From Vicinamibacteria bacterium (GTDB lineage: Bacteria > Acidobacteriota > Vicinamibacteria > Fen-336 > JAGNNV01), in assembly GCA_019694155.1 (NCBI GenBank), contig JAIBCN010000031.1:1-64000 (forward strand): DNA of 64,000 nucleotides, given 5' to 3'. Made by a program: the position numbers and the translations under genes. Positions 16,261 to 31,600 of the stretch are shown here, one piece after another; positions within the stretch are counted from its first letter, which is position 1, and every line of letters starts with the position of its first letter. The notes beneath the pieces were generated by a model. It searched no databases. It worked only from the letters and a program-made list of their open reading frames with translations, and had not been told where the DNA came from.

Positions 16261-16292
16261 GGCTCTCTACGCGCTTATGGGGAGAGAGAGGC

Positions 16293-16940: not shown

Positions 16941-17018
16941 AGGCGGAGACCTCGCGGTGACATTTTCCGCGGGGAGCATAGCAGCCGCCTCGCCGGCCCT
17001 TTGTTCGCTATCGAACTC

Positions 17019-18785
17019 CTAGCCCGCGGGCGGCAGGTGCGTCTCGAACCTCGATCCCTGGCCCGGAACGCTCGCGACGCTCACCGAGGCGCCCATGCTT
17101 TCGGCGAGGTGCTTCACGATGGAGAGGCCGAGACCGGTTCCCCCCAGTTCGCGGCTGCGCGCCGTGTCGACCCGGTAGAAGCGCTCGAAAAGGCGGGGCA
17201 GATGCTCGGGCCCGATGCCCGGGCCGGTGTCCTCGACCGCGACCACCGCGCCCTTTCCCTCCGGAGACACGCGCACGGTAACCCGCCCGCCGTCCGGGGT
17301 GTACTTGAGCGCGTTGTCGACGAGATGCTCCAGGATGCGCCGGAGGCGGTCCGAATCGCCGGCCACCGCGGGCGTGGAACTGAGCGCCGTGTTGAGCTGG
17401 ATGGACTTGCGCGATGCGATTCCCGCGAACGACGCCACCACGTCGCTCGCCACCGCCCCGCAGTCGAAGGATTCCAGCGAGGGCGGTTGGGCCCCCGACT
17501 CCAGCCGCGACAACTCCAGCAGGTCGTCAACGAGCGAAGCCATCCGGTCGGCGTTGGCGCGGATTCTCGAAAGGAAGCGCTTCGCGGTCTCCTGCTCCTC
17601 GAGGCCCCCGTCTTCCAGAGCCTCCACGAAGCCCCGGATGGAGGTGAGGGGCGTGCGCAGCTCGTGCGAAGCGTTCGCCACGAAGTCGCGTCGGATGCGG
17701 TCGACGCGCCTCCTTTCGCTCACGTCGTTGAACGTGATGACGACGCCGTCGGGCGCGCCGGGCGAGGCGGGAAAGGGGACGCCCACGAGGACGAAGGAGC
17801 GTCCGCTTCCCGAAAGGTCGATTTCCGCGGTGCGCCGCTCGCCCGAGGTCAGCACCTGGTCGATCAGGGCGCCGATCTCCGCCTGGCGGAACACCTCGAG
17901 ATAGTGGGTGCCGCTCGCGCCGGTCAGGTTGTGCGACCGCGAAAGCGCGTCATTCGCGAGAAGGACCGTTCCTTTGTGGTCGACGGCGAGCAGGCCATCC
18001 TCCATCGCGGAGAGAACCGCGGAGAAGCGCGCCCGCTCGCGGGTGGCTGCCGCGAACTGCTCCTGGATTCCAGACGCCGCCTGGTTGAGGACGCGCGCGA
18101 GCTGGCCGAATTCATCGTCCCGATCCTCGCGAATGCGCTTGCCGAGGTCGCCCCGGGCCATGGCCTGCGCGCCCTCGAGGATGCGCGACATCGGCTCGGC
18201 GAGCGGCCGCGACAGCCACCAGGCGAGGCCGCTTGCGAGAGCGAGGACGCTCAGAAGGGCGAGGCCCAGCGAGCGCTGGAGCTCGCGCGCCCGCATTTCG
18301 ATCCGGGCCAGGGACAAAGATGCCCGCGCCACCCCGAGCAGCCGGCCCTGGTGGCGGACCTGAACCGCCACGTACAGCTGGCTTTCGTGAGTGGTGTTCG
18401 ACAGGCGCTCATTGGTTCCCTCACCGAGGGAAAGCGCTTCGCGAATCTCGGGACGTCCCGCGTGATTCTCGATCGCGCGCAGCGCCTCGTCGGAGGCACT
18501 CGTGTCGCCGATCACGGCGCCGTTCATGGACACCACGGTGAGCCGCGTCTCCGTCGATCGACCCGCGCGGTCCACGAGGTCGTCCACCCAGTAGCCCGGA
18601 CCCTGGACGCTCCACGGAACCGAAAGAGCCTCGGCCAGAATCCGGGCTTCGGCCCGCAGCCGTTCTCGCGTCTCGGCCCGAGTGTCCTCGCGCAGAACAC
18701 GCCCTTGTACGAAGAGCACCACGATCAGGGCCGCCGCGGCGGTGAGGGCTCCCGCGAGCGTCAACCGGCGCCTGAAGCTCGACAC
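17019..18785 (-). CDS. phoR: Phosphate-type sensor histidine kinase
   Basis: 588 residues. A membrane helix near residues 8-28 (LTLAGALTAAAALIVVLFVQ), a ~140-residue periplasmic sensor, a second helix near 173-192 (LGLALLSVLALASGLAWWLS), then HAMP, a PAS-like segment (FSAVLSAMEDGLLAVDHKGT), HisKA with FVANASHELRTPLTS (phospho-His around residue 370) and a HATPase domain with DNALKYTPDGG, DTGPGI and GTGLGLSIVKHL. It follows phoB immediately (1-bp gap). The PAS-HisKA layout and the location with phoB and pit support PhoR. The periplasmic loop is longer than in E. coli PhoR, which has only a membrane hairpin. Confidence 0.9.
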   Translation of the reverse strand: MSSFRRRLTLAGALTAAAALIVVLFVQGRVLREDTRAETRERLRAEARILAEALSVPWSVQGPGYWVDDLVDRAGRSTETRLTVVSMNGAVIGDTSASDEALRAIENHAGRPEIREALSLGEGTNERLSNTTHESQLYVAVQVRHQGRLLGVARASLSLARIEMRARELQRSLGLALLSVLALASGLAWWLSRPLAEPMSRILEGAQAMARGDLGKRIREDRDDEFGQLARVLNQAASGIQEQFAAATRERARFSAVLSAMEDGLLAVDHKGTVLLANDALSRSHNLTGASGTHYLEVFRQAEIGALIDQVLTSGERRTAEIDLSGSGRSFVLVGVPFPASPGAPDGVVITFNDVSERRRVDRIRRDFVANASHELRTPLTSIRGFVEALEDGGLEEQETAKRFLSRIRANADRMASLVDDLLELSRLESGAQPPSLESFDCGAVASDVVASFAGIASRKSIQLNTALSSTPAVAGDSDRLRRILEHLVDNALKYTPDGGRVTVRVSPEGKGAVVAVEDTGPGIGPEHLPRLFERFYRVDTARSRELGGTGLGLSIVKHLAESMGASVSVASVPGQGSRFETHLPPAG

Positions 18786-19478
18786 CTACTCCGTCTCCCC
18801 CGGATCGGCCAGCCGATAGCCGATCGGCTTTACCGAGGCGATACGGGAGGCGATGGTCGGCAGCTTCTCGCGGAGTCGGCGGACATGCACATCGATGGTC
18901 CGCATACCTTCGATATAGCTGTAGCCCCAGATGTCCTCAAGCAACCGCTCCCGGGAAAGCACGCGGCCCCGGGCATCGGCGAGCGCCACCAGCAAAGAGA
19001 ACTCCTTAGCGGTCAGGTGGACGATCTTCCCCTGCTCGGTGACGGTGTGGCGCGCCCGGTCGATCCGGATCGTGCCGATGGAGATCGCGTCGTCGGCCTC
19101 GTCGTTGCGGTCGACGCGGCGCAGGATGGCCTTCACTCGAGCCGCGAATTCCTTGGGGGAGAAAGGCTTCACGATGTAGTCGTCGGCGCCGATCTCGAGT
19201 CCCACGATTCGATCGGTTTCCTCGCTGCGCGCGGTCACGATGACCACGGGCAGGCTCTTCAATTTCGGCGTGGCCCGGATCTGGGTCAGCACGCTGAGGC
19301 CGTCCTTGCCGGGGAGTTGAAGATCGAGCACCACGAGGCGGTAGGTCTCCGCCGCGAGCTTCGATAGGGCCTCGAGGCCGTCGCGCGCCAGGTCGCATCG
19401 CCACCCGTCACGCTCGAGATAGTGCGTGATCAGGCTCGCGATGTCGGAATCGTCTTCAACAACGAGAGCGCGCGCCAT
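18786..19478 (-). CDS. phoB: PhoB-type response regulator
   Basis: About 230 residues from ATG at 19478 (MARALVVEDDSDIASLITHY). Receiver: acidic pair EDD, phospho-Asp in YRLVVLDLQLPGKDG, Thr in VVIVTARSEE, Lys in DDYIVKPFSPKEF. C-terminal winged helix: LTAKEFSLLVALADARGRVL and TIDVHVRRLREKL, the DNA-recognition helix of OmpR/PhoB regulators. It binds direct repeats with 11-bp period; matching sites occur around the gene (19680-19712 upstream of its own operon). Transcribed with phoR, DUF47 and pit as one run. Confidence 0.92.
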   Translation of the reverse strand: MARALVVEDDSDIASLITHYLERDGWRCDLARDGLEALSKLAAETYRLVVLDLQLPGKDGLSVLTQIRATPKLKSLPVVIVTARSEETDRIVGLEIGADDYIVKPFSPKEFAARVKAILRRVDRNDEADDAISIGTIRIDRARHTVTEQGKIVHLTAKEFSLLVALADARGRVLSRERLLEDIWGYSYIEGMRTIDVHVRRLREKLPTIASRIASVKPIGYRLADPGETE

Positions 19479-19488
19479 CCGCACAATC

Positions 19489-19668
19489 TTAGGGGTTTCG
19501 CGTGTTCGGGGCGCTCGACGGCTCCGAACCCAGGCCGTCGCTTGGATCGGTGGCCCAGACAACCGCGCCCACGAAGATGGCGAGCGCCACCAGGAGAACG
19601 ACGAGCCGGAGCGCCTGCCGCCCCGGGGGGTCGGTCGGATGAAGCAGTTCGATCGAAGGGGCGGACAT
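19489..19668 (-). CDS. Small single-pass membrane protein before phoB
   Basis: 59 residues from ATG at 19668 (MSAPSIELLHPTDPPGRQAL), then one clear membrane helix (LRLVVLLVALAIFVGAVVWA) and a short Ser/Pro-rich outer tail. It stops 10 bp before the phoB start and so is probably the first cistron of the phoBR-pit operon. The Pho-type promoter at 19712-19680 would start transcription only about 5 nt before the ATG, making the message nearly leaderless. No family recognised; a role as a small regulator of the kinase or transporter is speculation. Confidence 0.55.
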   Translation of the reverse strand: MSAPSIELLHPTDPPGRQALRLVVLLVALAIFVGAVVWATDPSDGLGSEPSSAPNTRNP

Positions 19669-19679
19669 GGCGCCCCCCC

Positions 19680-19712
19680 AAGATGCCCCGTCCGCGTGAC
19701 GTTCCTGTGACA
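19680..19712 (-). promoter_or_regulatory. Pho box and -10, upstream of phoB operon
   Basis: Minus strand: TGTCACA (19712-19706), 4 bp, CGTCACG (19701-19695), 9 bp, CATCTT (19685-19680). Two GTCA half-sites 11 bp apart match the PhoB box layout. Points at the small ORF and phoB, suggesting autoregulation. Confidence 0.6.
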
Positions 19713-19738
19713 TGTGATTCACGAGGGCTTAGCTCCAG

Positions 19739-19771
19739 GGTCACGAAGGCGTCATGGCCGAAGCGGAAGAT
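19739..19771 (+). promoter_or_regulatory. Pho box and -10 driving candidate small RNA A
   Basis: Plus strand: GGTCACG (19739-19745), 4 bp, CGTCATG (19750-19756), 9 bp, GAAGAT (19766-19771). Diverges from the phoB-operon site 27 bp away. Downstream is a hairpin-ended segment, not a gene start. Confidence 0.55.
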
Positions 19772-19777
19772 CCCCGG

Positions 19778-19900
19778 CAACGAACCTCCTCCCAAGTCGG
19801 CCGGATCGGCCGCAACACTCAAAGGGCTTAAGAAGCTCTCCTCAAAGGGTCACGCAAAGATGGGCTGCGGCCGGTCTCCACAGACCGGCCGCAGCCTTTC
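19778..19900 (+). ncRNA. Candidate Pho-activated small RNA A
   Basis: Predicted to begin about 7 nt after the -10 at 19766-19771. The 5' end carries AACCTCCTCCCAAG (19783-19796), complementary to Shine-Dalgarno sequences. Then come stem-loops CGGCCG-gat-CGGCCG (19798-19812), AGGGCTT/AAGCTCT (19823-19839) and a perfect 15-bp hairpin (19863-19877 with 19882-19896, loop CCAC) followed by TTTCGTGT. No open reading frame of interest lies in it. The weak U tract leaves open an attenuator for the PHP gene starting at 20054. Confidence 0.5.
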
Positions 19901-20053
19901 GTGTCAGGCACGACTCCTCAGGAAATTTTCCGATCGTCTCAAGAACGCCTTCGTGGCGACCTTCGAACGCCGCTTTGGTGGGATCTAATCCCTCGCGACC
20001 TCAAGCAGCACTTCAAGCGGCGAGGAGAAGCTCCATGACGAAAGCAGGCCACC

Positions 20054-20989
20054 GTGCGCTGTGACCTTCACGTCCACACGCGCTACTCGGGTCCCGTGGA
20101 CATCCCGGTTCTCCGGCATTTGAGCCGGGAGTGCTATTCCGAGCCCATCGAGGTCTACGAGATCGCCAGGCGCCGGGGCATGGACCTCGTCACCATCACG
20201 GATCACGACACCATCGACGGCGCTCTCCAGCTGGCGCACCGGCCGGACTTCATCGTGGGCGAGGAGGTGACCTGTCAGATGAGCCCCGGCCGCGAGATCC
20301 ATCTTGGCGTCTGGGATCTGAATGAGGCCCGGCACGCGGCCATCCAGTCCCGTCGCCGGGATCCGGAGGCGCTGTTTGCCTGGCTTGCCGAGAACCGTGT
20401 CCCCGCCTGCATCAACCATCCCTTCTCCCCTCTCACCGGCCGGAGGGATGTCGACGACTTTCACCGCGCCTTCCGGGGCCTTTCGCTCATCGAGGCCCAG
20501 AACGGAATGATGCCCGCCGCCACCAACGAGTTCGCCCGTCTGGCTGGTCGCGCAGAGGGACTCGCCCCCGTGGGAGGAAGCGACGCCCACACTCTCGCCG
20601 GTGTGGCCCGCGCGTTCACCACGGTACCCCGCGCCTCCAGCCGGGAGGATTTCCTCGAGGGCTTGCGTCACGGCTTCACCGTTCCCGCCGGAGCCTCCGG
20701 AAGCTACGCCCTCCTCACCGATGCGGTGTTTCGGGTGTTCGCGGGGACGGTCCGCGAGAACAGTTCGCTCGCCCTGCGCTCCGCCGGGGACTTCGCGCGC
20801 TTTGCCGTGGTGGCCCCGGTCGTCCCCATCCTGGCGCTCGTCCCCTTCGTGACCTTCGCAAGCTACCTTCACGAAGTCCGAGGCGGCCGGAGGAACCACG
20901 CCTCCTACCGGGCGTCGCTGACCACTGCTCTCGCTCCCGCGAAGCGCCCATTGCTGGGATCGCGCCTCGCCCTGGGGAACGGATCATGA
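20054..20989 (+). CDS. PHP-domain phosphoesterase
   Basis: 311 residues from GTG at 20054. The PHP metal motifs are at the very N-terminus: CDLHVHTRYSG, then LVTITDHDTIDGA, later INHPFSPL and GGSDAHTLAG, which together form the trinuclear metal site of PHP phosphoesterases. The C-terminus has one hydrophobic segment (FAVVAPVVPILALVPFVTF). The family hydrolyses small phosphate esters or nucleotides; here it probably scavenges phosphate. A 9-codon ORF with a good GAGGAG SD (ATG at 20035, TGA ending 20064) overlaps the start, so translation may be coupled, or one base may have been gained (see findings). Overlaps the PAP2 gene by 4 bp. Confidence 0.82.
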   Translation: MRCDLHVHTRYSGPVDIPVLRHLSRECYSEPIEVYEIARRRGMDLVTITDHDTIDGALQLAHRPDFIVGEEVTCQMSPGREIHLGVWDLNEARHAAIQSRRRDPEALFAWLAENRVPACINHPFSPLTGRRDVDDFHRAFRGLSLIEAQNGMMPAATNEFARLAGRAEGLAPVGGSDAHTLAGVARAFTTVPRASSREDFLEGLRHGFTVPAGASGSYALLTDAVFRVFAGTVRENSSLALRSAGDFARFAVVAPVVPILALVPFVTFASYLHEVRGGRRNHASYRASLTTALAPAKRPLLGSRLALGNGS

Positions 20990-21519
20990 ATGCGGTTCTC
21001 ACCTACCTGGGCAACAGCGACCGCCGCCTTTCCGACCGCTTCGCCGACTGGAGTCCGCCGCGCTGGCTCCGTCTCTGGATGCTGTCCGCCACCCGCCTGG
21101 GCGACGGATGGCTGTGGGCGTTCATCGCCCTGGGCCTCCTCGCCGCGGGCGACTACGGCGTTCTGGCCGCCGCGAGCGCCGCCTGCGGCCTGGCGAACGG
21201 CATCATGATCGCGCTCAAGAGGAAGTTCCGCCGGTCCCGTCCGTGCGGCCAGGGAATCAACCAGTTCTTCCAGCTCGTGAAAGCGGATCTCTCGGCCTTC
21301 GACGGCTTTTCATTTCCTTCGGGCCACACGATGAACGCCTTCGCGATCGGCACCGTGCTTTCCAGGATGCATCCGTCCCTCCTGCCCGTGATGGCCTTCA
21401 TGGCCACGAGCATCGCGGCCTCCCGCCTCGTGCTCCGCATGCACTTCCTGACCGACATCCTTGCCGGCGCCTTCCTCGGCGTCGCCATTGGAGGCTTTGT
21501 CTGCCGCGCCTTCAGTTGA
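20986..21519 (+). CDS. PAP2 family membrane phosphatase
   Basis: 177 residues with several membrane helices. The three PAP2 motifs are present: LKRKFRRSRPCG (KX6RP), FPSGHTMNA (PSGH) and SRLVLRMHFLTDILAG (SRX5HX3D). Such enzymes dephosphorylate phosphatidic acid, PGP or isoprenyl pyrophosphate at the membrane. Start overlaps the PHP gene stop (ATGA). In this island it would release phosphate from lipids and give diacylglycerol, the acceptor for the nearby glycolipid-type transferase. Confidence 0.9.
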   Translation: MNAVLTYLGNSDRRLSDRFADWSPPRWLRLWMLSATRLGDGWLWAFIALGLLAAGDYGVLAAASAACGLANGIMIALKRKFRRSRPCGQGINQFFQLVKADLSAFDGFSFPSGHTMNAFAIGTVLSRMHPSLLPVMAFMATSIAASRLVLRMHFLTDILAGAFLGVAIGGFVCRAFS

Positions 21520-21550
21520 CGTAAGAAGGCGGCGCCGCGATGGCCCCTCT

Positions 21551-22129
21551 CTACTTCCGGCAGCGATAGACGAAGGCCGGAGGGATGTTCCGCCAGACGC
21601 GCGCGGAAACGTCCACCACGGAAAAGCTCGACTCGAGCATCTTCCTGAAGCGGCGCCCGGCGGGAAGCCATGCGGCGTGGCTGTAGGCGAAGGTGGCGAA
21701 CCCGCCCCCGGGGCGAAGAGCGCTCACCGCGGGCTCGAGGAGCCGCCTCTGTTCCTCAGCGGAGAGGATCACCCACGGCAGGCCGCTGATCACGCAATCC
21801 ACTTCCGGGCCGGAGGGGCCCAGGTGGCGACCGAGGTTCTCCGCGGAGTCGTTCACCACTTCGGCTCGCGGGAATCGCTCCGCCACCGCGCGGGCGAGCT
21901 CGGGGTTGATCTCGAGGCAGATCAGACGCGCCTCCGGTCTGAGTTCACGCTCGATGAACCGGGTGAAGACGCCGGTGCCCGGCCCAAGCTCCACGACCGT
22001 CCTCGCCTGCGCCAGGTCCATGCCCTCCACCATGGCGCTCGCGAGATACCGCGAACTGGGCGTGATGGAGGCGGTGTGAAAAGGTCGTCGGACGAACGCG
22101 GCCAGAAAGTGAGCGCGGTCTCGCACCAT
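21551..22129 (-). CDS. Phospholipid N-methyltransferase-like protein
   Basis: 192 residues. HTASITPSSRYLASAMVEG at the N-terminus is the characteristic opening of bacterial PmtA-like phospholipid methyltransferases; the SAM motif TVVELGPGTGVFTRFIE and LEINPELAR follow, and CVISGLPWVILS is the NLPF-like site. The enzyme would methylate phosphatidylethanolamine (psd lies 1.2 kb away). Convergent with PAP2 (31-bp gap). Its promoter lies in the 22130-22230 interval, which also contains a plus-strand Pho-like site. Confidence 0.78.
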   Translation of the reverse strand: MVRDRAHFLAAFVRRPFHTASITPSSRYLASAMVEGMDLAQARTVVELGPGTGVFTRFIERELRPEARLICLEINPELARAVAERFPRAEVVNDSAENLGRHLGPSGPEVDCVISGLPWVILSAEEQRRLLEPAVSALRPGGGFATFAYSHAAWLPAGRRFRKMLESSFSVVDVSARVWRNIPPAFVYRCRK

Positions 22130-22196
22130 GCCTCATGATCGGTCCGTCCTTCGACATCGGTGTGTCGGGACCGAAGTTCACGCCGGCAAAACACCA

Positions 22197-22230
22197 GGGT
22201 CGCATGCGGGTCACCGCCCGCCGCTACCGT
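22197..22230 (+). promoter_or_regulatory. Pho-like box upstream of lipid-type GT4
   Basis: GGGTCGC (22197-22203), 4 bp, GGGTCAC (22208-22214), then CTACCG after 9 bp or TACCGT after 10 bp. One half-site is GTCG rather than GTCA and the -10 is poor. A start near 22237 would make the GTG at 22238 leaderless. Confidence 0.35.
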
Positions 22231-22231
22231 C

Positions 22232-23338
22232 GTGTCCGTGACGCCTCTTCCTGCGCCGCGACCCCCGATCCGCAGAAAGCAACGGCTCGCCCTCGTCACC
22301 GACGCCTGGCATCCCCAGACGAATGGTGTCGTCAACACCCTGTCCCGCCTGGTGAAGCACCTCGAAACCTCGGGGATGGAAGTCCTCGTTGTCTCTCCGC
22401 AGGGGCATCGCACTGTTCCTTTTCCCTCCTACCCGGAGGTTCGAGTGGCCTGGGATCCATGGAAGGCGATCCCCAGACTGCGGAACTTCGAGCCCGACGC
22501 CGTGCACATCGCCACGGAGGGTCCCATCGGTCTTTCGGTTCGGGCGTGGATGGCTCGCCGGAACCTGTGCTTCACCACGAGCTTCCACACCCGCTTCCCC
22601 GAGTACCTGAGCGCGCGCGTGCCCGTTCCCCTCGATTGGGGCTATGCGGTGGAGCGTTGGTTCCACGGCCGCGCGGAGCACACCCTCGTGGGCACCGAGA
22701 CCTTGATCCGCGAGCTTCGAGAAAAACGGGTCGGGCGGACTCTCGTCCATTGGCCCCGGGGTGTCGATACCGATCTGTTCCGTCCCGACCGGCGTGACAT
22801 CGGGATCTACCCGTTCCCGGGGCCGGTCTGGCTTTACGTCGGCCGGGTGGCGGTGGAGAAGAGCCTCGAGGACTTCCTCAGCCTCTCTCTTCCCGGAACG
22901 AAGGTGGTCGTGGGCGACGGCCCTTCGCGGGCGGCGCTCCAGAGCCGCTTTCCGGAAACGATCTGGCGCGGCTACCGGTTCGGGGAGGATCTCGCCGCCC
23001 ACTACGCGAGCGCGGATTGCTTCGTCTTTCCTTCGAGAACCGAGACCTTCGGCAATGTGCTCCTCGAGGCCATGGCCTCCGGTCTTCCCGTCGCCGCCGT
23101 ACCCTCGCCCGGACCCTCCGACCTGATCCGCGATGGCGGCAACGGTGCCCTTGGCGCGGACCTCGGCGCGTCGTGCCTGCGCGCACTCTCGTGCTCGCGA
23201 AACGAGGCCCGCGCCACCGCCCTCGGGTACAGCTGGCGGGCCAGCCACGAGGTGTTCCGCAACCACCTGGTGCCCATGGTCGGAAGGCACCCGCTCGCCT
23301 TCCTCAAGACACCTCGCGCCGCGAGGGCCGCCGGCTAG
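22232..23338 (+). CDS. GT4 glycosyltransferase, glycolipid (SqdX/MgdA-like) type
   Basis: About 368 residues; GTG at 22232 or 22238 is the likely start, upstream codons being non-conserved. LALVTDAWHPQTNGVVNTLS is the opening shared by the diacylglycerol glycosyltransferases of the SqdX/PimB-like branch. Later TSFHTRFPEYLSARVPVP, PRGVDTDLFRPDR, YVGRVAVEKSLEDFLSL and ETFGNVLLEAMASGLP (EX7E). Such enzymes make glycolipids that replace phospholipids when phosphate is short. Convergent with psd, 7 bp apart. Substrate assignment is by family resemblance and context. Confidence 0.8.
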   Translation: MSVTPLPAPRPPIRRKQRLALVTDAWHPQTNGVVNTLSRLVKHLETSGMEVLVVSPQGHRTVPFPSYPEVRVAWDPWKAIPRLRNFEPDAVHIATEGPIGLSVRAWMARRNLCFTTSFHTRFPEYLSARVPVPLDWGYAVERWFHGRAEHTLVGTETLIRELREKRVGRTLVHWPRGVDTDLFRPDRRDIGIYPFPGPVWLYVGRVAVEKSLEDFLSLSLPGTKVVVGDGPSRAALQSRFPETIWRGYRFGEDLAAHYASADCFVFPSRTETFGNVLLEAMASGLPVAAVPSPGPSDLIRDGGNGALGADLGASCLRALSCSRNEARATALGYSWRASHEVFRNHLVPMVGRHPLAFLKTPRAARAAG

Positions 23339-23345
23339 CCCCTCC

Positions 23346-24218
23346 TCACCCGAGGATGCGCAGCAGTGGCTCGCCCATCCGGATGGCCCTTCCCTCGGAC
23401 ACGTTGGGTGCGAGGTTCAGTTCGCCGGGAGCGAACACGATGATGGTGGAGCCCTGTTCGAAGCGGCCCATTTCCTGACCCTTTCGCAGAATGGCGTCGC
23501 AGGCAATGACGTTGGGGCCCTTGTACCTCAGGTGAAGGCGCACGTCGAGAAACTCGAATCTCATGCTCGCCACCAGGACCGCGGCCACGGGCACCAGGGT
23601 GACCCTGTGGCCCGTCTGCAGCAGCGTCGTCTGAATGACCGCCCGCTCGTTCTTCGCATAGAGCCGTTCGACCCGTCGAAGGGCGATGGGGTTCACGTTC
23701 CAGGTGTCGCCGGAGATGTAGGTCACCCGCTCGACGCGACAGTCGTGCGGCGCATGAAACCGGTGGTACATGTTCGACTTCAGGCGAAGGGTGATGTAGG
23801 TGCCGTTCGTATAGGAGCGCACCAGTTCCGGGTCGTGAAGCAGGTCCGCGAGGGTGTACGGGAATCCCTTGGCCTGGATCAACTCGGTTCCAAGCACCCG
23901 ACCCGAGGCTCCCACGATCGCGTCGCACGGACTGACGAGCACATCCTCCTGACGATCGATGGGCCGGGCGCCCTCCTTCAGCTCGCGGATGAAGCAGTCG
24001 TGAAGGCTCTCGAACCGTCTCTTTCTGGCCTCCTCCAGGTGCAGGTCGTCGGCAAAGAGGCGGAACGCCCACAGCGAGGGCCGGCTCACCAGGGGATTCC
24101 TGATCCGGCAGAACCAGCCCATGAAATGGGTGAGAAGCGTGCGGGGAATGCGATTCGTGAGCAGGAAGTTCAGATCCTCCTGCTGCAGGAGGTTCCCGAG
24201 GGCGGTCTTCATGGTCAT
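23346..24218 (-). CDS. psd: Phosphatidylserine decarboxylase
   Basis: 290 residues. The catalytic Asp region VSPCDAIVGASGRVLG, the His segment MYHRFHAPHDCRV, and the self-cleavage site RFEQGSTIIVF (the GST that yields the pyruvoyl group) are all present. It makes phosphatidylethanolamine at the inner membrane. ATG at 24218 or 24212 (MTMKT). The start is only 38 bp from the divergent aminotransferase, and the plus-strand Pho box at 24213-24230 covers the psd start codons, so PhoB bound there could block psd transcription. Confidence 0.92.
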   Translation of the reverse strand: MTMKTALGNLLQQEDLNFLLTNRIPRTLLTHFMGWFCRIRNPLVSRPSLWAFRLFADDLHLEEARKRRFESLHDCFIRELKEGARPIDRQEDVLVSPCDAIVGASGRVLGTELIQAKGFPYTLADLLHDPELVRSYTNGTYITLRLKSNMYHRFHAPHDCRVERVTYISGDTWNVNPIALRRVERLYAKNERAVIQTTLLQTGHRVTLVPVAAVLVASMRFEFLDVRLHLRYKGPNVIACDAILRKGQEMGRFEQGSTIIVFAPGELNLAPNVSEGRAIRMGEPLLRILG

Positions 24219-24245
24219 CGGGATGTCGTGCGCCGGTCGGACACT
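24213..24245 (+). promoter_or_regulatory. Pho box between psd and aminotransferase
   Basis: GGTCATC (24213-24219), 4 bp, TGTCGTG (24224-24230), with a third GGTCGGA (24235-24241) in the same 11-bp register; 9 bp after the second unit is GACACT (24240-24245). The predicted start is ~5 nt before the ATG at 24257. The first half-site overlaps the psd start codon on the other strand. Confidence 0.45.
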
Positions 24246-24256
24246 AAGGCCCCAAT

Positions 24257-25999
24257 ATGGAGACCACCATCGCGTTCTACGCCCTGGGCGGGGCCGCTGT
24301 GCTCGCCTCGCTGTCCCGATTGAAGACCCGCCTGGAGCTGTCGCAGGCGAAGCACCCTTCGCTTGGAGGTCACGCCCGCCTGGCCTCTCGCCTTGCGAGG
24401 CTGGTGCCGTTCTATGAATACGACGAGACTCGCTTCTTCCGGGTCGATGCCGCGCCCGCCGAAATCGAGAGCCGAAGGCGCGGGGCCTTCGAGCGGCTTT
24501 CCGAAAGGCTCCAATCGAGCCGGCCCGACACCCTCCGTCTCACTGCGGAAGTTCTGCAGGGCATCTCCGACCTTCAGTTCACTTCCGCCTACCGGGTTCC
24601 CTATCAGTTCAGCCGCCTTGTCCGTGAGCGGCTGAGCACCGGAGCCTTCACGGCTTCGTCTTCCGGGGTGACGGTCACCGATGTCGACGGCAACCGGTCG
24701 TACGACCTCACGGGTTCGTACGGCGTCAACGTCTTCGGCTACGACTTCTACAAGGAGTGCATGCGGCGCGGTCTCGAGCGCGCACGCGAGCTCGGCCCCG
24801 TGCTCGGTTCGTACCATCCGGTGGTTGCCCGGAACGTGGAGCGGCTTCGCGAAATCTCCGGCCTCGATGAGGTGTCCTTCCACATGTCGGGCACGGAAGC
24901 GGTGATGCAGGCGGTCCGGCTCGCCCGCTACCACACGCGAAGATCGCATCTCGTCCGTTTCTGCGGCGCCTATCACGGCTGGTGGGACGATGTTCAGCCG
25001 GGTGTGGGGAACCCGGGTGTTCCCCACGAAACCTACACGTTGAAGGAGCTCGACGAGGACACCCTCCGGGTCCTGCGCACACGCCGGGACATTGCCTGCG
25101 TGCTGGTGAATCCTCTCCAGGCCCTTCATCCGAACGAAGCCGCGCCCAGCGATTCGACGCTCGTGAGCACGCGTCGCGCCGGCTTCGACCGGGAGGCTTA
25201 CACCGCGTGGCTGAGGCGGCTGCGCCAGGTGTGCGCAGAGCGCGGCATAGTCCTGATCTTCGATGAGGTCTTCGTTGGCTTTCGCCTCGCTCGGGGGGGA
25301 GCGCAAGAGTATTTCGGGGTGCGCGCCGATCTCGTCACCTACGGCAAGACGCTGGCGGGCGGTCTCCCCATCGGCGCGGTTTGCGGCCGGAAGGACCTGA
25401 TGAAGCGGTTCCGGGACGATCGGCCCACGGACATCTGTTTCGCCCGCGGCACTTTCAATTCGCACCCCTACGTCATGGCCTCGATGTTCGAGTTTCTCGA
25501 GCACCTCGAGACCGAGGAGGCGCGTCGCGTCTATGGCGACCAGGATACGACCTGGGATGCGCGGGCGCGGGCGCTCAACGAGCGAATGCACGAACTCGAT
25601 CTGCCGGTCCGGGTGGCGAACCTGTCCTCGATCTGGACCGTCCTCTACCCGCAGCCTTCCTGCTACAACTGGATGTTCCAGTACTACCTTCGAGCCGAAG
25701 GCCTGGCCCTCAGCTGGGTGGGAACCGGACGGTTGATCTTCAGCCTGAACTATACGGAGGCCGACTTCCAGGTGGTGGCCGCCCGCTTCGAGGCGGCGGC
25801 CCGGCAAATGAAGGAAGACGGCTGGTGGTGGCATCGCGACGGCGAGACAGGGAAGTCCATCCATCGTCGGATCCTGCGGGAAATGATCGCGGCCCGGTTC
25901 GCAAAGGAACCGCGGACGGCCCGAGGCTCCGGAGGCGATCAGGCGGCCGGCGCGCTCGTCGGCACGATTGGGTCGAGCAGCTCGCCACGCAGCACGTAG
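24257..25999 (+). CDS. Membrane-anchored class III PLP aminotransferase
   Basis: 580 residues. An N-terminal hydrophobic helix (TTIAFYALGGAAVLASLS) precedes ~100 residues of linker and a class III aminotransferase domain: HMSGTEAVMQAVRLAR, CGAYHGWWDD, LIFDEVFVGFRLA, and the PLP lysine in DLVTYGKTLAGGLPIGAV. This resembles glutamate-1-semialdehyde aminomutase relatives, but these are soluble and ~430 residues. The extra N-terminus suggests action on a membrane lipid or lipid precursor. Its position opposite psd under a Pho-like box points to phosphate-starvation lipid chemistry. The last 61 bp overlap the convergent next gene. Substrate unknown. Confidence 0.8.
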   Translation: METTIAFYALGGAAVLASLSRLKTRLELSQAKHPSLGGHARLASRLARLVPFYEYDETRFFRVDAAPAEIESRRRGAFERLSERLQSSRPDTLRLTAEVLQGISDLQFTSAYRVPYQFSRLVRERLSTGAFTASSSGVTVTDVDGNRSYDLTGSYGVNVFGYDFYKECMRRGLERARELGPVLGSYHPVVARNVERLREISGLDEVSFHMSGTEAVMQAVRLARYHTRRSHLVRFCGAYHGWWDDVQPGVGNPGVPHETYTLKELDEDTLRVLRTRRDIACVLVNPLQALHPNEAAPSDSTLVSTRRAGFDREAYTAWLRRLRQVCAERGIVLIFDEVFVGFRLARGGAQEYFGVRADLVTYGKTLAGGLPIGAVCGRKDLMKRFRDDRPTDICFARGTFNSHPYVMASMFEFLEHLETEEARRVYGDQDTTWDARARALNERMHELDLPVRVANLSSIWTVLYPQPSCYNWMFQYYLRAEGLALSWVGTGRLIFSLNYTEADFQVVAARFEAAARQMKEDGWWWHRDGETGKSIHRRILREMIAARFAKEPRTARGSGGDQAAGALVGTIGSSSSPRST

Positions 26000-26553
26000 A
26001 GCGGCGCCTTGTAGTAGAGCTTTATGTCGTGAAAGGGGTCGGTGAGGATCTTCGCGAACCACGCGAAGCCGCTCATCACGCCTTTGAGGAAGAAGAGATG
26101 GACGGTCCGGAACAGCACCGCTCCGATGCCCAGAAAGAGCCAGACCATCGAGAGATTTCGCAGGAAGCCCGCAAGGTCGCCGGGGGCGTCCAATAGACCG
26201 AGAAAGGTCGGGCTCGCCGCGAGGATCAGGGGAGAGAGAGCCCATAGGGTCAGAAGCACCACCTTGCGCCGGAGGTTGTAACCCACCTTCACCGCCTCTT
26301 TGTACTCGTGGGTGGCTTGGTTGGCCTCGTCATAGCCCTTGGGCTCGAAGAAGAAATGGCCGATCTGGCGGGAGACCATGGCGATGAGCCAGCCGAGCAG
26401 AGCCGCCGCCGCCGGCGAGGTGAAGAGCAGAACGTAGGCGCAGAGAAACGTGATGGCGGACAGCAGGTGGAGCGACTGGTTGATCCGGCTGTGATGGTAG
26501 TAGCGATGGTCATCCCAGCGCTGCTCTTCAAGAGTTCGCAGAAATTCGCTCAC
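25939..26553 (-). CDS. Small polytopic membrane protein, Mpo1/DUF962-like
   Basis: About 204 residues from GTG at 26553, which has an AAGGAGA SD 8 bp away. Four or five membrane helices. YYHHSRINQSLHLLSA, then RQIGHFFFEPKGYDEANQATHE, show the His clusters and GH..E pattern reminiscent of Mpo1/DUF962 proteins, which oxidise 2-hydroxy fatty acids with iron in yeast. I am not sure of this family link. A Pho box with a good -10 (TAAATT) lies upstream at 26635-26603. The 3' end overlaps the convergent aminotransferase by 61 bp. Confidence 0.68.
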   Translation of the reverse strand: MSEFLRTLEEQRWDDHRYYHHSRINQSLHLLSAITFLCAYVLLFTSPAAAALLGWLIAMVSRQIGHFFFEPKGYDEANQATHEYKEAVKVGYNLRRKVVLLTLWALSPLILAASPTFLGLLDAPGDLAGFLRNLSMVWLFLGIGAVLFRTVHLFFLKGVMSGFAWFAKILTDPFHDIKLYYKAPLYVLRGELLDPIVPTSAPAA

Positions 26554-26602
26554 GGCGGTTCTCCTTGGAATCAGGGGGAAGGCGGGGACGGCTCTCACGC
26601 CG

Positions 26603-26635
26603 AATTTAGGGATGCTCTACGACCCTTGCGTGACG
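26603..26635 (-). promoter_or_regulatory. Pho box and -10 for membrane protein gene
   Basis: Minus strand: CGTCACG (26635-26629), 4 bp, GGTCGTA (26624-26618), 9 bp, TAAATT (26608-26603). The -10 matches TATAAT at four of six positions. Overlaps the 3' end of the zinc-ribbon ORF. Confidence 0.55.
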
Positions 26636-26878
26636 GTCGCCTGATGGACCGATGACGTCGGACGGGCCCGGCCCCTCGCTTCCTCCCAGGAATCGAGCGC
26701 GAAATCGGCGGGGCAGTGCGAACAGTCTTCGGCAGGACTCGCATCGGAACAGAGTGAGACCGAGCAACCGCAGGTGAAAAGGAACGCGGTGCCGGGAGAG
26801 GCGCACATAGCGGCTCAGGCAATGAGTGCACTCGCCGCCCTCCGCGTTCAGCCCTCGAGCGATCGTTCGCCAGTACAA
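26606..26878 (-). CDS. Small zinc-ribbon protein
   Basis: About 90 residues from a TTG start at 26878, preceded by GGGAG. Two Cys pairs, ECTHCLSRYVRLSRH and FRCESCRRLFALPRRF, spaced ~32 residues, form a probable zinc ribbon; the segment between them is hydrophobic and basic (RVPFHLRLLGLTLF). The tail after residue 60 is low complexity and may not be conserved. A Pho-like box at 26930-26897 would start transcription ~10 nt before the TTG. Function unknown. Confidence 0.5.
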   Translation of the reverse strand: MYWRTIARGLNAEGGECTHCLSRYVRLSRHRVPFHLRLLGLTLFRCESCRRLFALPRRFRARFLGGSEGPGPSDVIGPSGDRHARVVEHP

Positions 26879-26896
26879 GCTTGGTTCTCCCGTCCG

Positions 26897-26930
26897 GTCA
26901 TACCGTTCCGCTGAGACGTTGCTATGACAG
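26897..26930 (-). promoter_or_regulatory. Pho-like box for zinc-ribbon ORF
   Basis: Minus strand: CTGTCAT (26930-26924, identical to the E. coli Pho half-site), 4 bp, ACGTCTC (26919-26913), 10 bp, TATGAC (26902-26897). Confidence 0.45.
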
Positions 26931-26978
26931 GCGGCCCTCGTCCCCCCGTCCCTCGCCTTTTCTCGCAGTTGTCCCTCG

Positions 26979-27011
26979 CGTCATCAAGGCGTCATCCAGC
27001 TCCGGCACAAT
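26979..27011 (+). promoter_or_regulatory. Pho box and -10 driving candidate small RNA B
   Basis: CGTCATC (26979-26985), 4 bp, CGTCATC (26990-26996), 9 bp, CACAAT (27006-27011). The two half-sites are identical. This is the clearest Pho box of the set together with 28151-28168. Confidence 0.65.
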
Positions 27012-27017
27012 GCTCTC

Positions 27018-27132
27018 AATCTCCTCCTAAGGTCGTTCGAGCCCGAATCTCGAACACGCGTCCGGGAGCCGAAGGGCTCCATTGGGGCTGCGGCTGGTCC
27101 GCCAGAGATCAGTCGCAGCCCTCGTTCTTTTC
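27018..27132 (+). ncRNA. Candidate Pho-activated small RNA B
   Basis: Starts about 7 nt after the -10. An unpaired 5' end with CTCCTCC (27021-27027) is followed by GTTCGAG/CTCGAAC (27035-27055, perfect 7 bp), GGAGCC-gaag-GGCTCC (27065-27080) and a 12-bp terminator hairpin (27085-27096 with 27110-27121, one G-U) followed by TCGTTCTTTTC. The anti-SD motif at the predicted 5' end is shared with candidate A. Ends 80 bp before the orphan regulator gene. Confidence 0.58.
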
Positions 27133-27213
27133 ACGGAGTTAACGCCCCCGACGCGCCACCTTCTCTTCGCATCCTTAGCGTCCGCTTGATCCAGTAGCAG
27201 AACCGAGGAACGA

Positions 27214-27966
27214 ATGAACCAGTCCGAAGCGCTCGAATCTGCCCCTCGCAACGGCGAGACCCCCCCGGAGAAGACACGCGCCGCCGAATCGCGCCGGAGA
27301 ATCGTGATCATCGAAGACGACCGCGACATCGCGGACGCCATGAGTTACGCGCTCGACCGCGCAGGCTTCAGTGTTCGAATCGCCCGCACCGGAGAAGAGG
27401 GCCTGGACGCGGTGCGCAAGGGAGCCGACCTCGTCCTGCTCGACCTCAACCTTCCCGGCATGGACGGCATGGAGGTCTGCCGGATGCTCCGCCGCCAGCC
27501 CGGCTCCACCCATACCCCGATTCTCATCGTCTCCGCCCGCGGCGAGGAGGTTGACCGGGTGCTCGGCCTCGAAATGGGCGCAGACGACTACCTGGTCAAG
27601 CCGTTCTCGATGAAGGAACTCGTCGCCCGCTGCAAAGTTGGACTGAGGCGCCTGGAGGCTCAGATCGACGGCCCTGCGGGGTACCGCGACGAGAACTTCG
27701 AGATCGAGTTCGACGCCTACGTGCTGCGGTACCAGGGTGAGGAGATCCGCCTCACCCACAAGGAGTTCGAGCTTGTCCGCTACATGGTCGAGCGGGCAGG
27801 CCGCGTCCTCACCCGCGAGCGGCTCCTGGACCGGGTCTGGGGCCATGACGCCGAAGTCGACGCCCGGAGCATCGACGCGCACGTACGCCGGCTGCGCGCC
27901 AAGCTCGGTCCGGCCCGCCATCATGTAGAGACAGTCATCGGGATCGGTTACCGCTTCGTTCGGTAG
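27214..27966 (+). CDS. Orphan OmpR/PhoB-family response regulator
   Basis: 250 residues from ATG at 27214 with a GAGGA SD. A ~28-residue Glu/Arg-rich N-terminal extension precedes the receiver (RIVIIEDDRDIADAMSY, phospho-Asp in DLVLLDLNLPGMDG, TPILIVSARGEE, DDYLVKPFSMKEL) and a winged helix (LTHKEFELVRYMVERAG and SIDAHVRRLRAKL). No kinase gene is adjacent. It is surrounded by Pho boxes and two candidate small RNAs, so it may be a PHO-regulated second-tier regulator; the phoR product could also phosphorylate it. Confidence 0.88.
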   Translation: MNQSEALESAPRNGETPPEKTRAAESRRRIVIIEDDRDIADAMSYALDRAGFSVRIARTGEEGLDAVRKGADLVLLDLNLPGMDGMEVCRMLRRQPGSTHTPILIVSARGEEVDRVLGLEMGADDYLVKPFSMKELVARCKVGLRRLEAQIDGPAGYRDENFEIEFDAYVLRYQGEEIRLTHKEFELVRYMVERAGRVLTRERLLDRVWGHDAEVDARSIDAHVRRLRAKLGPARHHVETVIGIGYRFVR

Positions 27967-28027: not shown

Positions 28028-28120
28028 GATTCAAAACGCCAACTTCGGGAGCGGATCCCGAGGACATCAGCCGCAAACCGGGTGGAGGCCAGGGTGCCTG
28101 GTCCTCCACCCGGTCTTTTC
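28028..28120 (+). ncRNA. Candidate Pho-activated small RNA C
   Basis: Follows the Pho-like promoter. Contains TCGGGA/TCCCGA (28045-28061) and a strong terminator: ACCGGGTGGAGG (28077-28088) pairs perfectly with CCTCCACCCGGT (28103-28114), with an inner CCAGG-gtg-CCTGG, followed by CTTTTCC. It lacks the clear CUCCUCC motif of A and B. The terminator may equally serve the upstream regulator gene. Confidence 0.48.
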
Positions 28121-28150: not shown

Positions 28151-28183
28151 CGTCACACCGTCGTCACACGCCCTTCCTAGCCT
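28151..28183 (+). promoter_or_regulatory. Pho box and -10 of TonB receptor gene
   Basis: CGTCACA (28151-28157), 4 bp, CGTCACA (28162-28168), 9 bp, TAGCCT (28178-28183). Identical half-sites. The predicted start is about 42 nt before the ATG at 28232, leaving room for the CAGGAGG SD. Confidence 0.65.
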
Positions 28184-28231: not shown

Positions 28232-31200
28232 ATGCCCACCCCGTCTTCATTCGCGCTCGTGCGCCACCTTCGGCTTCCGCTGCGCCGCGCCATGGCCTTC
28301 ATTCTGGGCCTGAGCCTCGTGGCCCTGGCTGGCCCCGCCGTCGCGCAGACCGACAACGGCCGCATCACCGGGGTCGTAAAGGACCCTTCGGGCGCCGTGG
28401 TGCCGGGAGTCAGCGTGACCCTAACCAACGACCTGACGGGTGATGTCCGGGAGACGGTGGCCAACGCTCAGGGGCGCTATTCCTTTCTGGGGCTGAAGCC
28501 CGCGCCCTACACGCTCAAGGCCCAGCTCTCCGGCTTTCAGCCCAACGAGGTGAAGGCTCAGAAAGTCTCGGCGGGCCAGGAAGTCAATCTGGATTTCTCT
28601 CTCAAGCAGGCGAACCTCTCCGAGACCATCGAGGTGGTCGGCGAAGTCAGCGCCATCGACCTGTCGTCCGCGCGCATCGGCGCCAACGTCAACGAGCGGG
28701 AAGTGGGGCAGCTTCCCATCAACGGCCGCCAGCTGTCCCAGCTGTATCTCCAGGCCCCCGGCTCGGTCAACACGGGAACCGGCACCTTCGGCGACGTCCG
28801 CTTCGCGGGCCGCGCGGTGCAGCAGAACATCATCCGCTACGACGGCGTCGAGGGATCGGCCGTCATCGACGCCTCTCCTGGCAACCTGAATGGCGAGATT
28901 CCCTCGCCGTTCCGGCTTCAGGCGAGCCTGGAGAACGTGCAGGAATTCCGGGTCGAGTCCAGCAACTTCCCGGCGGAGTACGGAACCGGCACCGGCGGTC
29001 AGATCACCGTCATCACCAAGTCCGGGAGCAACAAGTTCCATGGCTCCGCCTTCGAGTACTTCCGCGACGAGTCGCTCGACAGCCCGAACCGCTTCGATCC
29101 CACGGTGAATGGCGTCCAGCAGAAGTCCCCGCTTCGGCAGCATCAGTTCGGTGGTTCGCTCAGCGGCCCCCTCATGAAGGACCGGGCCTTCTTCCACCTC
29201 AGCTACGAGGGATATCGCCTGGACTCCGGCATCAACTTCGTGGAGGCGGTTCCCTCCGCTGCGGCGCGCGCGCGCGCCGTTCCCTCCATCCTGCCCCTGC
29301 TCGACGCTTTCAAGTCGCCGAGCGCCGTCATCCTGCCCGGCGCCTCGGCCAACCCTGATTTCGACATCGCCCAGCTCCAGAGCGTCGCGAACGTCAACGA
29401 GAACTCTTTCGCCGGCCGCCTCGACATCAAACTCAACGGCTCTCATCGCCTCTACGCGCGCTACTTCAACGACAAGGGAGAGAACGACCAGCCGGAAGGC
29501 GTCACCGGCCGGCACGTCCTGATCGAGAGCCGGCCGCAAAACGCGGTTCTGGCCCTCCAGAGCAACTTCGGCGTTTCCTCCCTCAACGAGTTCAAGATCG
29601 GATACAATCGGGCCGACACCTCCGTCTCCGGCATCGCGCCGACCGTGAACGGAATCGACCTTTCCGCCATCACCATCAACATCACGGGGAGTGTCGCCAA
29701 CAACGGCATCGTGGGACAGGGTTCCTCGTCCGGGACGGCGATCCCCGGCGGCCTGGTTCGGCAGAACTCGGCCACCAACGGCCGCGGCGCCCCCTACGAG
29801 CCGTACTCGCTCTCCTTCATCGATGTCTTCTCGTCGAACCGCGGCTCGCACCTGTTGAAGGCGGGCGCCGAGGTTCGCTTGATCCGCATGAAGACCGACC
29901 GCCTGGGCGGCACCACCTACACGTATTCGAACCTCAACGCTTTCCTCGCGAACACTGCCCAGCAGATCCAGTACCTAGGCGATCTCTCGGCGCCCTCGCC
30001 CTTCAACAACGGGGTCACCGGCGAGCGGAACGCCCGCACCGAGTTCTTCGTCGCCTACCTTCAGGACGAATGGAAGGTCCGACCGAACTTCACCCTCAAC
30101 TACGGGGTGCGCATGGACAAGTACAAGCCTCTCCGCGAAGCCAACGACCTTGGCATCATGTTCGACACCGTAAAGGGCGTTCTCCTGCCCAAGGGCACTC
30201 CTTTCTTCAAGTCGTCGGCTGTCTTCCAGCCGCGGGTGTCCTTCACCTACGCCCTCGGAGAGTCCGGCAAGACGGTTCTTCGGGGCGGTGCCGGACTGAT
30301 GGTGGGTCCGGGTCAGATGGAGGACCAGATCCAGCCCATCGAGAGCGACCGCGTTTCTTCCACGATCAGCGGCGGCGCCTTCCCGACGGCATCCGCGACA
30401 TTCGTGTCGAACTTCACGAACAATCCGAACAACCGCACCTACCAGCCCCGCGCCTATTCACCGGACTACAAGCTCCCCGAGAAGGTCTACCAGTACACGC
30501 TCAGCATCCAGCGCGAACTCGGATACAACACCACGCTCAGCGCCGCCTATGTAGGGAGCCAGGGTAGGAACCTCTTCCTGCGGTCGATCACCAACCAGAT
30601 CACGGAAGTCCGGACCAACGCGAACCCCGCATCGGCCGCGGTGGTCATCCGGCAGTTCGACATCATCAACGCCGACGGCAGCATTTCGCGACCGTACGCA
30701 GAGATCGATCTCAAGACCAGCGGCGGCCATGACCAGTACAACGCACTGCAGGTCTCGCTCAGCCGGCGCATGCAGCGGGGCCTGACCCTGAACGCCCAGT
30801 ACACCCTGGCCAAGAGCACCGGCAACTCCGCAGGTTCGAACGAAGCGGTCACCGCGGGGAACAACGCGGTCAGGATCTCGGACTTCGACTACGACGACGG
30901 CTACAACCGCTTCGACGTGCGCCACACGTACAACGCATCCGCCCTCGTGAACCTGCCCATCGGGAAGGACCGGGCCCTGAACCTCGGCCCCCTGAACGCG
31001 ATCTTCGGAAACATGGATCTGGGCCTCATCTTCAACGGCCGCAGCGGTCTGCCCATCGACGTGCTCGTGACCCGTCCCGACGTGGCCTACGTGGATGCGA
31101 GCGGAGCGGTGTTCGGCGCTCCGGCCGTCGGACGCACGGCGGTGATCAATACGCCGGGCGGAGGCGCCTCCCGCAACACGCGCCGGCCCAATCTCATTCC

Positions 31201-31600
31201 CGGCGTGAGCCCCTACCTCAAGAACGGCCTGCAGTGGCTCAACCCCGCCGCCTTCTCCATCCCGGCTCCAGGCCAGTTCGGGAATCTCAAGCGAGGCGAG
31301 ATTCGCGGCCCCAGCTTCCGCCAGCTCGACCTGACCGCGATCAAGAAGATCAACGTCGGCGGATCGACCCTCGACCTTCGCCTGGAGGTTTTCAACCTCC
31401 TCAACACGGACAACTACGCGAACCCCTCGGGAACCATCGCCAACGCGATCGGGGTGGGAAACAACCTGGTGCAGCCCAATCAGCCGCTGACCCAGGCCGC
31501 CGCGGGAAGCACGTTCGGGCTCCTGCGTTCCACGGTGGGCACCACGGTCGGTCTCGGAACGAACCGCCAGATCCAGATCGCCGCGCGCTTGAGCTTCTGA
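28232..31600 (+). CDS. TonB-dependent receptor, Oar-like
   Basis: 1122 residues with an AGGAGG SD. Signal peptide to about residue 38 (LVALAGPAVAQ). Residues ~43-120 are a carboxypeptidase-regulatory-like fold (GRITGVVKDPSGAVVPGVSV), then the plug (NEREVGQLPINGRQLSQLYL onward, with YGTGTGGQITVITKSGSN) and a long beta barrel ending in the expected C-terminal Phe (IQIAARLSF). Such receptors take up large ligands in Acidobacteriota and Bacteroidota-like groups. The Pho box just upstream suggests phosphate-starvation induction and hence uptake of an organic-phosphorus or metal-phosphate ligand; the ligand is inference. Confidence 0.9.
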   Translation: MPTPSSFALVRHLRLPLRRAMAFILGLSLVALAGPAVAQTDNGRITGVVKDPSGAVVPGVSVTLTNDLTGDVRETVANAQGRYSFLGLKPAPYTLKAQLSGFQPNEVKAQKVSAGQEVNLDFSLKQANLSETIEVVGEVSAIDLSSARIGANVNEREVGQLPINGRQLSQLYLQAPGSVNTGTGTFGDVRFAGRAVQQNIIRYDGVEGSAVIDASPGNLNGEIPSPFRLQASLENVQEFRVESSNFPAEYGTGTGGQITVITKSGSNKFHGSAFEYFRDESLDSPNRFDPTVNGVQQKSPLRQHQFGGSLSGPLMKDRAFFHLSYEGYRLDSGINFVEAVPSAAARARAVPSILPLLDAFKSPSAVILPGASANPDFDIAQLQSVANVNENSFAGRLDIKLNGSHRLYARYFNDKGENDQPEGVTGRHVLIESRPQNAVLALQSNFGVSSLNEFKIGYNRADTSVSGIAPTVNGIDLSAITINITGSVANNGIVGQGSSSGTAIPGGLVRQNSATNGRGAPYEPYSLSFIDVFSSNRGSHLLKAGAEVRLIRMKTDRLGGTTYTYSNLNAFLANTAQQIQYLGDLSAPSPFNNGVTGERNARTEFFVAYLQDEWKVRPNFTLNYGVRMDKYKPLREANDLGIMFDTVKGVLLPKGTPFFKSSAVFQPRVSFTYALGESGKTVLRGGAGLMVGPGQMEDQIQPIESDRVSSTISGGAFPTASATFVSNFTNNPNNRTYQPRAYSPDYKLPEKVYQYTLSIQRELGYNTTLSAAYVGSQGRNLFLRSITNQITEVRTNANPASAAVVIRQFDIINADGSISRPYAEIDLKTSGGHDQYNALQVSLSRRMQRGLTLNAQYTLAKSTGNSAGSNEAVTAGNNAVRISDFDYDDGYNRFDVRHTYNASALVNLPIGKDRALNLGPLNAIFGNMDLGLIFNGRSGLPIDVLVTRPDVAYVDASGAVFGAPAVGRTAVINTPGGGASRNTRRPNLIPGVSPYLKNGLQWLNPAAFSIPAPGQFGNLKRGEIRGPSFRQLDLTAIKKINVGGSTLDLRLEVFNLLNTDNYANPSGTIANAIGVGNNLVQPNQPLTQAAAGSTFGLLRSTVGTTVGLGTNRQIQIAARLSF

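Follow-up and report, generated by a model that had tools for sequence, protein, structure and literature searches.

A putative phosphate-controlled small RNA family with an anti-Shine-Dalgarno motif in Vicinamibacteria

Introduction

The pho box of Escherichia coli has an 11-bp period and a GTCA core and stands in the place of the -35 element of its promoters. The regulators OmpR and CpxR control small RNAs such as MicF, OmrA/B, and CpxQ, which repress outer-membrane proteins. PhoB of E. coli binds direct repeats in its phosphorylated form (PMC10294691). Among small RNAs that carry anti-Shine-Dalgarno motifs, the ar14 RNAs of alpha-proteobacteria combine three predicted hairpins and ultraconserved CCUCCUCCC motifs with stems that diverge in sequence (PMC10746234). 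The CcsR RNAs, named "conserved CCUCCUCCC motif stress-induced RNAs" in Rfam, are processed from one transcript together with the DUF1127 gene ccaF1 and are made from an RpoH promoter (PMC10253847).

Here, we analyze a 64-kb stretch of DNA (referred to as the window) that is part of a 120-kb contig (C73) of the 5.27-Mb genome of an uncultured member of the Acidobacteriota. Its nearest relatives among the compared genomes are uncultured Vicinamibacteria (Acidobacteriota), with G001 being the genome of a sister species. An initial annotation of the window had described one intergenic block (26980-27132; block B or copy B in the following) as a Pho box followed by a three-hairpin RNA with the layout of a trans-acting small RNA. 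We consider it likely that block B is indeed a Pho-induced anti-Shine-Dalgarno small RNA gene and one of a small multi-copy family. Among open-licence papers, we found none that deals with small RNAs in this bacterial class or with its Pho boxes.

Layout of the block and its promoter signature

Block B lies in a 335-bp spacer between the gene of a small CxxC protein (26606-26878, - strand) and a phoB-like gene on the + strand (Table 1). The small protein has CxxC pairs, belongs to no Pfam family, and is almost restricted to this genome. A small open reading frame at 26924-27142 was considered as a gene and set aside, with no support found for it.

The identical CGTCATC half-sites and the CACAAT hexamer noted initially are both present, and the half-sites (26979-26985 and 26990-26996) form an 11-bp direct repeat. 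By itself, a 7-mer that recurs after 11 bp is nothing unusual (the window has 14), and CTCCTCC, with 11 occurrences per strand, is frequent in this genome. The more specific pattern GTCAY-N6-GTCAY was observed four times in the window versus 0.30 expected from shuffles. At all four of these boxes, as well as at a small RNA locus of G001, a 10-nt gap separates the box from a hexamer of the form NANNNT; as in a pho box, an 11-bp direct repeat thus takes the position of the -35 element at a fixed distance from the -10 element. Searching 14 genomes for GTCAY-N6-GTCAY-N11-ANNNT gave 46 matches versus none for the reversed pattern, a rough control, with about one chance match per genome expected as judged from the window shuffles. 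This genome has five such matches, of which four are in the window (at RR1, copy A, copy B, and an Oar-like receptor gene), and G001 has two (at RR1 and at C379:18243).

Table 1. Features of the window at and around the predicted small RNA genes.
Feature	Position	Strand	Remarks
PHO4 (Pit) phosphate transporter	15262-16260	-	Pfam
DUF47/PhoU-like gene	16293-16979	-	Pfam
PhoR/PnpS-like histidine kinase (HAMP-PAS-HisKA-HATPase)	17019-18785	-	domain/family models
RR1, OmpR/PhoB-family response regulator	18786-19478	-	PF00072 and PF00486; TIGR02154 213.5 bits, below cut-off
Box and -10 facing RR1, GTCACAGGAACGTCAC...CATCTT	19680-19711	-	pattern search and RR1 orthologue upstream regions
Box of copy A, GTCACGAAGGCGTCAT	19740-19755	+	GTCAY pattern search
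-10 hexamer GAAGAT, copy A	19766-19771	+	10 nt past box
Predicted small RNA, copy A	19779-19903	+	found with model from copy B alone; fold z -5.25
GTCAY-N6-GTCAY direct repeat, copy B	26980-26995	+	in relatives, also present ahead of RR1, OprO/P porin, and TonB receptor genes
-10 hexamer CACAAT, copy B	27006-27011	+	10 nt past box
Predicted small RNA, copy B (about 110-115 nt)	27018-27132	+	start inferred from -10; fold z -4.33; relatives A and C
Unpaired CTCCTCC (anti-Shine-Dalgarno)	27021-27027	+	mean unpaired probability 0.88; present in A and C
Hairpin 1, 7-bp stem	27035-27055	+	stem of different letters at same place in A and C
Hairpin 2, 6-bp stem	27065-27080	+	also present in A; shortened to 4 bp in C (weak in G001)
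Hairpin 3, terminator-like, 16-17 bp	27084-27122	+	followed by TCGTTCTTTTC; arms common to A and C
TTAAC-type Pho box of phoB-like gene	27126-27153	+	overlaps predicted RNA tail; conserved in G001, G008, and G013
phoB-like response regulator	27214-27966	+	in relatives of the same order often directly follows phoU (named from sequence)
Box and -10 of Oar-like receptor gene	28152-28183	+	pattern search
Oar-like outer-membrane receptor, candidate target	28232-31600	+	PF25183, PF13620; Shine-Dalgarno pairs with RNA 5' end

The RR1 gene is followed in order by the genes of the PhoR/PnpS-like kinase, the DUF47 protein, and the PHO4 transporter. In relatives, the GTCAY box is found 43 to 52 nt upstream of RR1 orthologues (G001, G006, G007, G009, and G010), upstream of OprO/P phosphate porins (identified with Pfam in G004, G006, and G007 and by their likeness in G009 and G010), and upstream of TonB receptors (G008 and G013). 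Because it sits at these porins and receptors and at RR1 with its phosphate gene cluster, the GTCAY repeat is, as far as sequence context can tell, a genuine phosphate-regulon-type box. The same placement overruled a non-Pho reading of the box at 26980, which had come from its poor score by a PWM of the pst TTAAC boxes. As a separate observation, two GTCAY boxes lie about 93 nt apart at TonB receptor genes of G013 and G008 (L091, G013:C229:46018 and 46111; L252, G008:C141:11572 and 11664).

Two apparent types of Pho box

In this clade, pst and phoB promoters carry a different repeat, TTAAC-N6-TTAAC. With pstS set aside, the one at the phoB-like gene of the window is the top match in the 120-kb contig, its core score being 17.6 compared with 10.4 for the runner-up. 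This repeat was also seen at the pstS promoters of L081, L084-L089, and L092-L094. Vicinamibacteria seem, from these promoter sequences, to have two kinds of Pho box: TTAAC at pstS and the phoB-like gene, and GTCAY at OprO/P porins, RR1, TonB receptors, and the small RNAs. RR1 is likely the activator of the GTCAY box, and this box type most likely belongs to RR1 and not to the phoB-like gene with its own TTAAC box. The Pho box originally proposed at block B was thus right in kind, though it is probably RR1's rather than that of the neighboring PhoB-like regulator. Like the promoters bound by PhoB, the GTCAY boxes are direct repeats; unlike at the E. coli pho box, the regulator here would probably be a second PhoB-family protein, RR1, next to pst and phoB promoters with TTAAC repeats.

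Two side observations concern the region behind the phoB-like gene. In G001 (L083, reverse complement, about 4210-4290), the TonB-receptor-like gene after phoB carries a box of the TTAAC type (GTTTACACGGAAGTAACGG), and the receptor gene after phoB in the window has a GTCAY box. At 28034-28120 (+), the phoB-like gene is followed by a non-coding stretch (CAAAACGCCAACTTCGGGAGCGGATC...) with a strong terminator hairpin and paired changes that is conserved in G001 (L083, reverse complement from 4106). The covariance model R1 (see below) scores 17.6 and 13.9 bits on these stretches, which may correspond either to one more structured RNA or to a conserved 3' end.

Copies of the block in two species

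A covariance model built from block B alone (R1) finds 19783-19905 over its full length (30.3 bits, E 4e-9), with the same fold. This copy A (block 19740-19903) lies 7.2 kb from copy B on the same strand and shows, after its box and a 10-nt gap, GAAGAT, CCTCCTCCCAAG, two stem-loops of other letters, and a 16-bp hairpin with arms (GGGCTGCGGCYGGTC) common to copy B, ending in a short tail (TTTCGTGT). The third member, copy C, is found in G001 at C379:18243. Here, GTCACAAAGGTGTCAC is followed after 10 nt by GATACT and then by CTCCTCCTAA, one hairpin, another that is weak, and GGGCTGCGGCCGGTCC...CCGCAGCCTTTGCTTCTTC. Its neighbors, named by reading their sequences, are an exonuclease-like gene and a superoxide-dismutase-like gene, and the gene that comes after it is encoded on the other strand. 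All three members have in common, in this order, GTCAY-N6-GTCAY, the 10-nt gap, NANNNT, a predicted start about 7 nt further on, CTCCTCC, hairpins, and near-identical terminator arms, and no reading frame common to them is evident. Among the loci of relative Vicinamibacteria examined (0.9 Mb, overlaps counted), the full signature of box, -10, and anti-Shine-Dalgarno motif occurs only at A, B, and C.

The trans-acting small RNA layout suggested for block B therefore recurs at two more loci, one of them in another species. The proposed covariance-model search in relatives was less productive: R1 found copy A in its own genome and no convincing homologue in 148 other genomes, with the best E of 0.0018 in one genome being expected by chance over so many. 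A match at G002:C143 was discarded as lying inside reading frames. A DNA search of the region in 60 relatives gave short chance matches only, and Rfam models gave nothing relevant on the region. The family is known from this species and one sister species, and the best reading of these sequences is that A, B, and C form a new small RNA family that would belong to no Rfam family.

These copies also bear on whether block B could be no more than a GC-rich spacer that contains hairpins and a repeat by chance, as would fit the commonness of its repeat spacing and of CTCCTCC and the lack of R1 homologues in the 148 other genomes. We regard this as very improbable because of the second and third copies, the former with its low E-value and the latter in G001; moreover, the composite of box, -10, and CTCC(TCC) was found twice in the 120-kb contig versus 0.03 times in Markov-1 sequences.

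RR1 and the phoB-like gene, divergent neighbors in G001, are 7.7 kb apart here. The two small RNA copies lie at the inner ends of the RR1/phoB-like interval (15262-27966), as if genes had been inserted between duplicated spacers.

Hairpin 3 sits between the box promoter and the phoB-like gene, all in the same direction, so that block B might alternatively be a 5' leader of this gene. Transcripts that begin at the box at 26980 would then either terminate at the hairpin or extend into 27214, an attenuation mechanism by which RR1 would be coupled to phoB. Copy A, too, has a same-strand gene downstream (20054), and the arrangement of RR1 and phoB in G001 suggests that they are probably functionally linked. 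However, the phoB-like gene has its own conserved Pho box and a -10 element past hairpin 3, and the phoB gene of G001 is entirely without the block. Because of its setting between exonuclease-like and superoxide-dismutase-like genes, with no same-strand gene close behind, the G001 member is not part of a phoB leader, and we find such a function unlikely for block B.

Predicted fold of the RNAs

Read as a small RNA of its own, copy B is predicted to fold at -53.9 kcal/mol, which none of 200 shuffles equalled. Hairpin 3 alone accounts for the corresponding z of about -4.3. The two perfect stem-loops of the initial annotation are present, but hairpins 1 and 2 together are at the level of shuffled sequence (z -1.35; 16 of 200 shuffles as good). 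The fold z of B, A, and C changes from -4.33, -5.25, and -4.03 to -1.35, -0.04, and -1.21, respectively, when the last hairpin is left out. Conversely, the stability of hairpin 3 is exceptional and equalled by only 6 of 47,924 40-nt windows of the contig. Its A and B versions differ at one pair by a double change (T-A to C-G) and at two others by G-U/G-C exchanges, as read from an alignment of three members only. MAFFT aligned neither the stems nor the seed of C correctly, so that its alignment of A, B, and C was not used for a covariance model. Stem covariation of hairpins 1 and 2, which a conserved small RNA was expected to show, cannot be claimed because their energies are at shuffle level and hairpin 2 is weak in G001; going by the sequences, only the terminator hairpin is clearly conserved. 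All three hairpins may form, with only the terminator-like one standing out in the models.

The U-rich tail described for this terminator is less informative than its stem. Its T's coincide with the TTAAC box of the phoB-like gene and are kept at the phoB gene of G001, where the small RNA block including the hairpin is wholly absent; for this reason, they alone are no evidence of termination, and their conservation suggests that they are retained for the TTAAC box rather than for termination.

With significant structure in the terminator hairpin only, this hairpin could also be an insulator or terminator that shields the phoB promoter, in which case the box transcript would be short and meaningless and the arms a copied terminator. 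The arm pattern occurs at just two sites of the genome, copies A and B, both in the window as after a local duplication, and in 0 of 20 relatives (the G001 arms deviate slightly from it). Yet box, spacing, -10, and CTCCTCC are shared along with the arms, also in another species and context, and these signals are shared while the intervening stem letters differ. We therefore judge mere insulation to be quite improbable.

A predicted anti-Shine-Dalgarno seed and a candidate target

A small RNA gene, the reading we prefer, would make CTCCTCC its seed. This motif had been described as unpaired and close to the 5' end, which the predictions largely bear out for all members: in B, A, and C, it is located at +4, +8, and +4 with unpaired probabilities of 0.88, 0.79, and 0.94. 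An accessible seed complementary to Shine-Dalgarno sequences (0.79-0.94 unpaired) is what characterizes anti-Shine-Dalgarno small RNAs; their own promoter and terminator and the lack of an ORF find their sequence counterparts in the box, the -10 hexamer, hairpin 3, and the absence of a shared frame.

A first candidate target is the Oar-like outer-membrane receptor. When the 87 gene starts of the contig are ranked, its Shine-Dalgarno region (CAGGAGGAUC) comes only 3rd with B, 14th with A, and 12th with C, and any gene with a strong Shine-Dalgarno sequence would score too. A longer 5' region of this gene and copy B are predicted to form a duplex of -22.1 kcal/mol. Because the receptor gene carries the same GTCAY box, we infer that the receptor may be held in check by the small RNA.

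Comparison with described small RNAs

Copies A, B, and C resemble ar14 and NfeR1 (RF02344) in their three predicted hairpins, an unpaired anti-Shine-Dalgarno motif, and stems of very different letters, and copy A contains the exact CCTCCTCCC. Unlike ar14 RNAs with one motif per hairpin, they have a single CTCCTCC at the 5' end only, and they have a phosphate-type box. The RF02344 model scores copy A at 21.6 bits versus a gathering cut-off of 58.8 and matches neither B nor C. Membership in ar14 was therefore rejected on both cut-off and motif number.

The anti-Shine-Dalgarno motif, the presence of several copies, and the relation to stress are shared with CcsR1-4 of Rhodobacter. Unlike CcsR RNAs, copies A and B appear as genes in their own right that do not share a box or a terminator, and the copies lie far apart. 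The CcsR1 model gives 10.2 bits versus a cut-off of 65.3, and Pfam finds phosphate and other families but not DUF1127 in the scanned flanking genes, which include part of the small ORFs near copy A and in the G001 flanks. By analogy, the best reading is that A, B, and C would work like ar14 and CcsR RNAs without being members of either.

An OmpR-family regulator that drives an RNA that may in turn repress an outer-membrane protein also recalls MicF, OmrA/B, and CpxQ. This is an analogy only, with both target and repression being predictions here.

Discussion

The computational results that support a small RNA gene at block B are the GTCAY box with its connection to phosphate genes, the layout shared by three members, a CTCCTCC that is accessible in the predicted folds, and a hairpin resembling a terminator. 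In the proposed scheme, phosphate stress would lead a PhoB-family regulator, most likely RR1, to bind in its phosphorylated form to the GTCAY repeat, which would replace a -35 element, and transcription would start from about position 27018. The transcript, if made, would be an RNA of about 110 to 115 nt that would end at the hairpin 27084-27122, just before the Pho box of the phoB-like gene. Its free 5' CTCCTCC would pair with Shine-Dalgarno regions of mRNAs, possibly including that of the Oar-like receptor, and lower their translation.

More tentatively, and leaning slightly to the side of doubt, we propose that these RNAs could be, for the Acidobacteriota, the first family of anti-Shine-Dalgarno small RNAs under phosphate control, one that has duplicated and is mobile between loci. 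They might form one feed-forward circuit with RR1, the phoB-like gene, and the outer-membrane receptor, with GTCAY boxes serving one PhoB-family regulator and TTAAC boxes the other. If the small RNA reading is right, it would define a two-type Pho-box code for Vicinamibacteria and provide a promoter signature able to find small RNA genes. It would also add another case of CCUCCUCC-type anti-Shine-Dalgarno RNAs outside the alpha-proteobacteria, hinting at a repeated origin of the seed.
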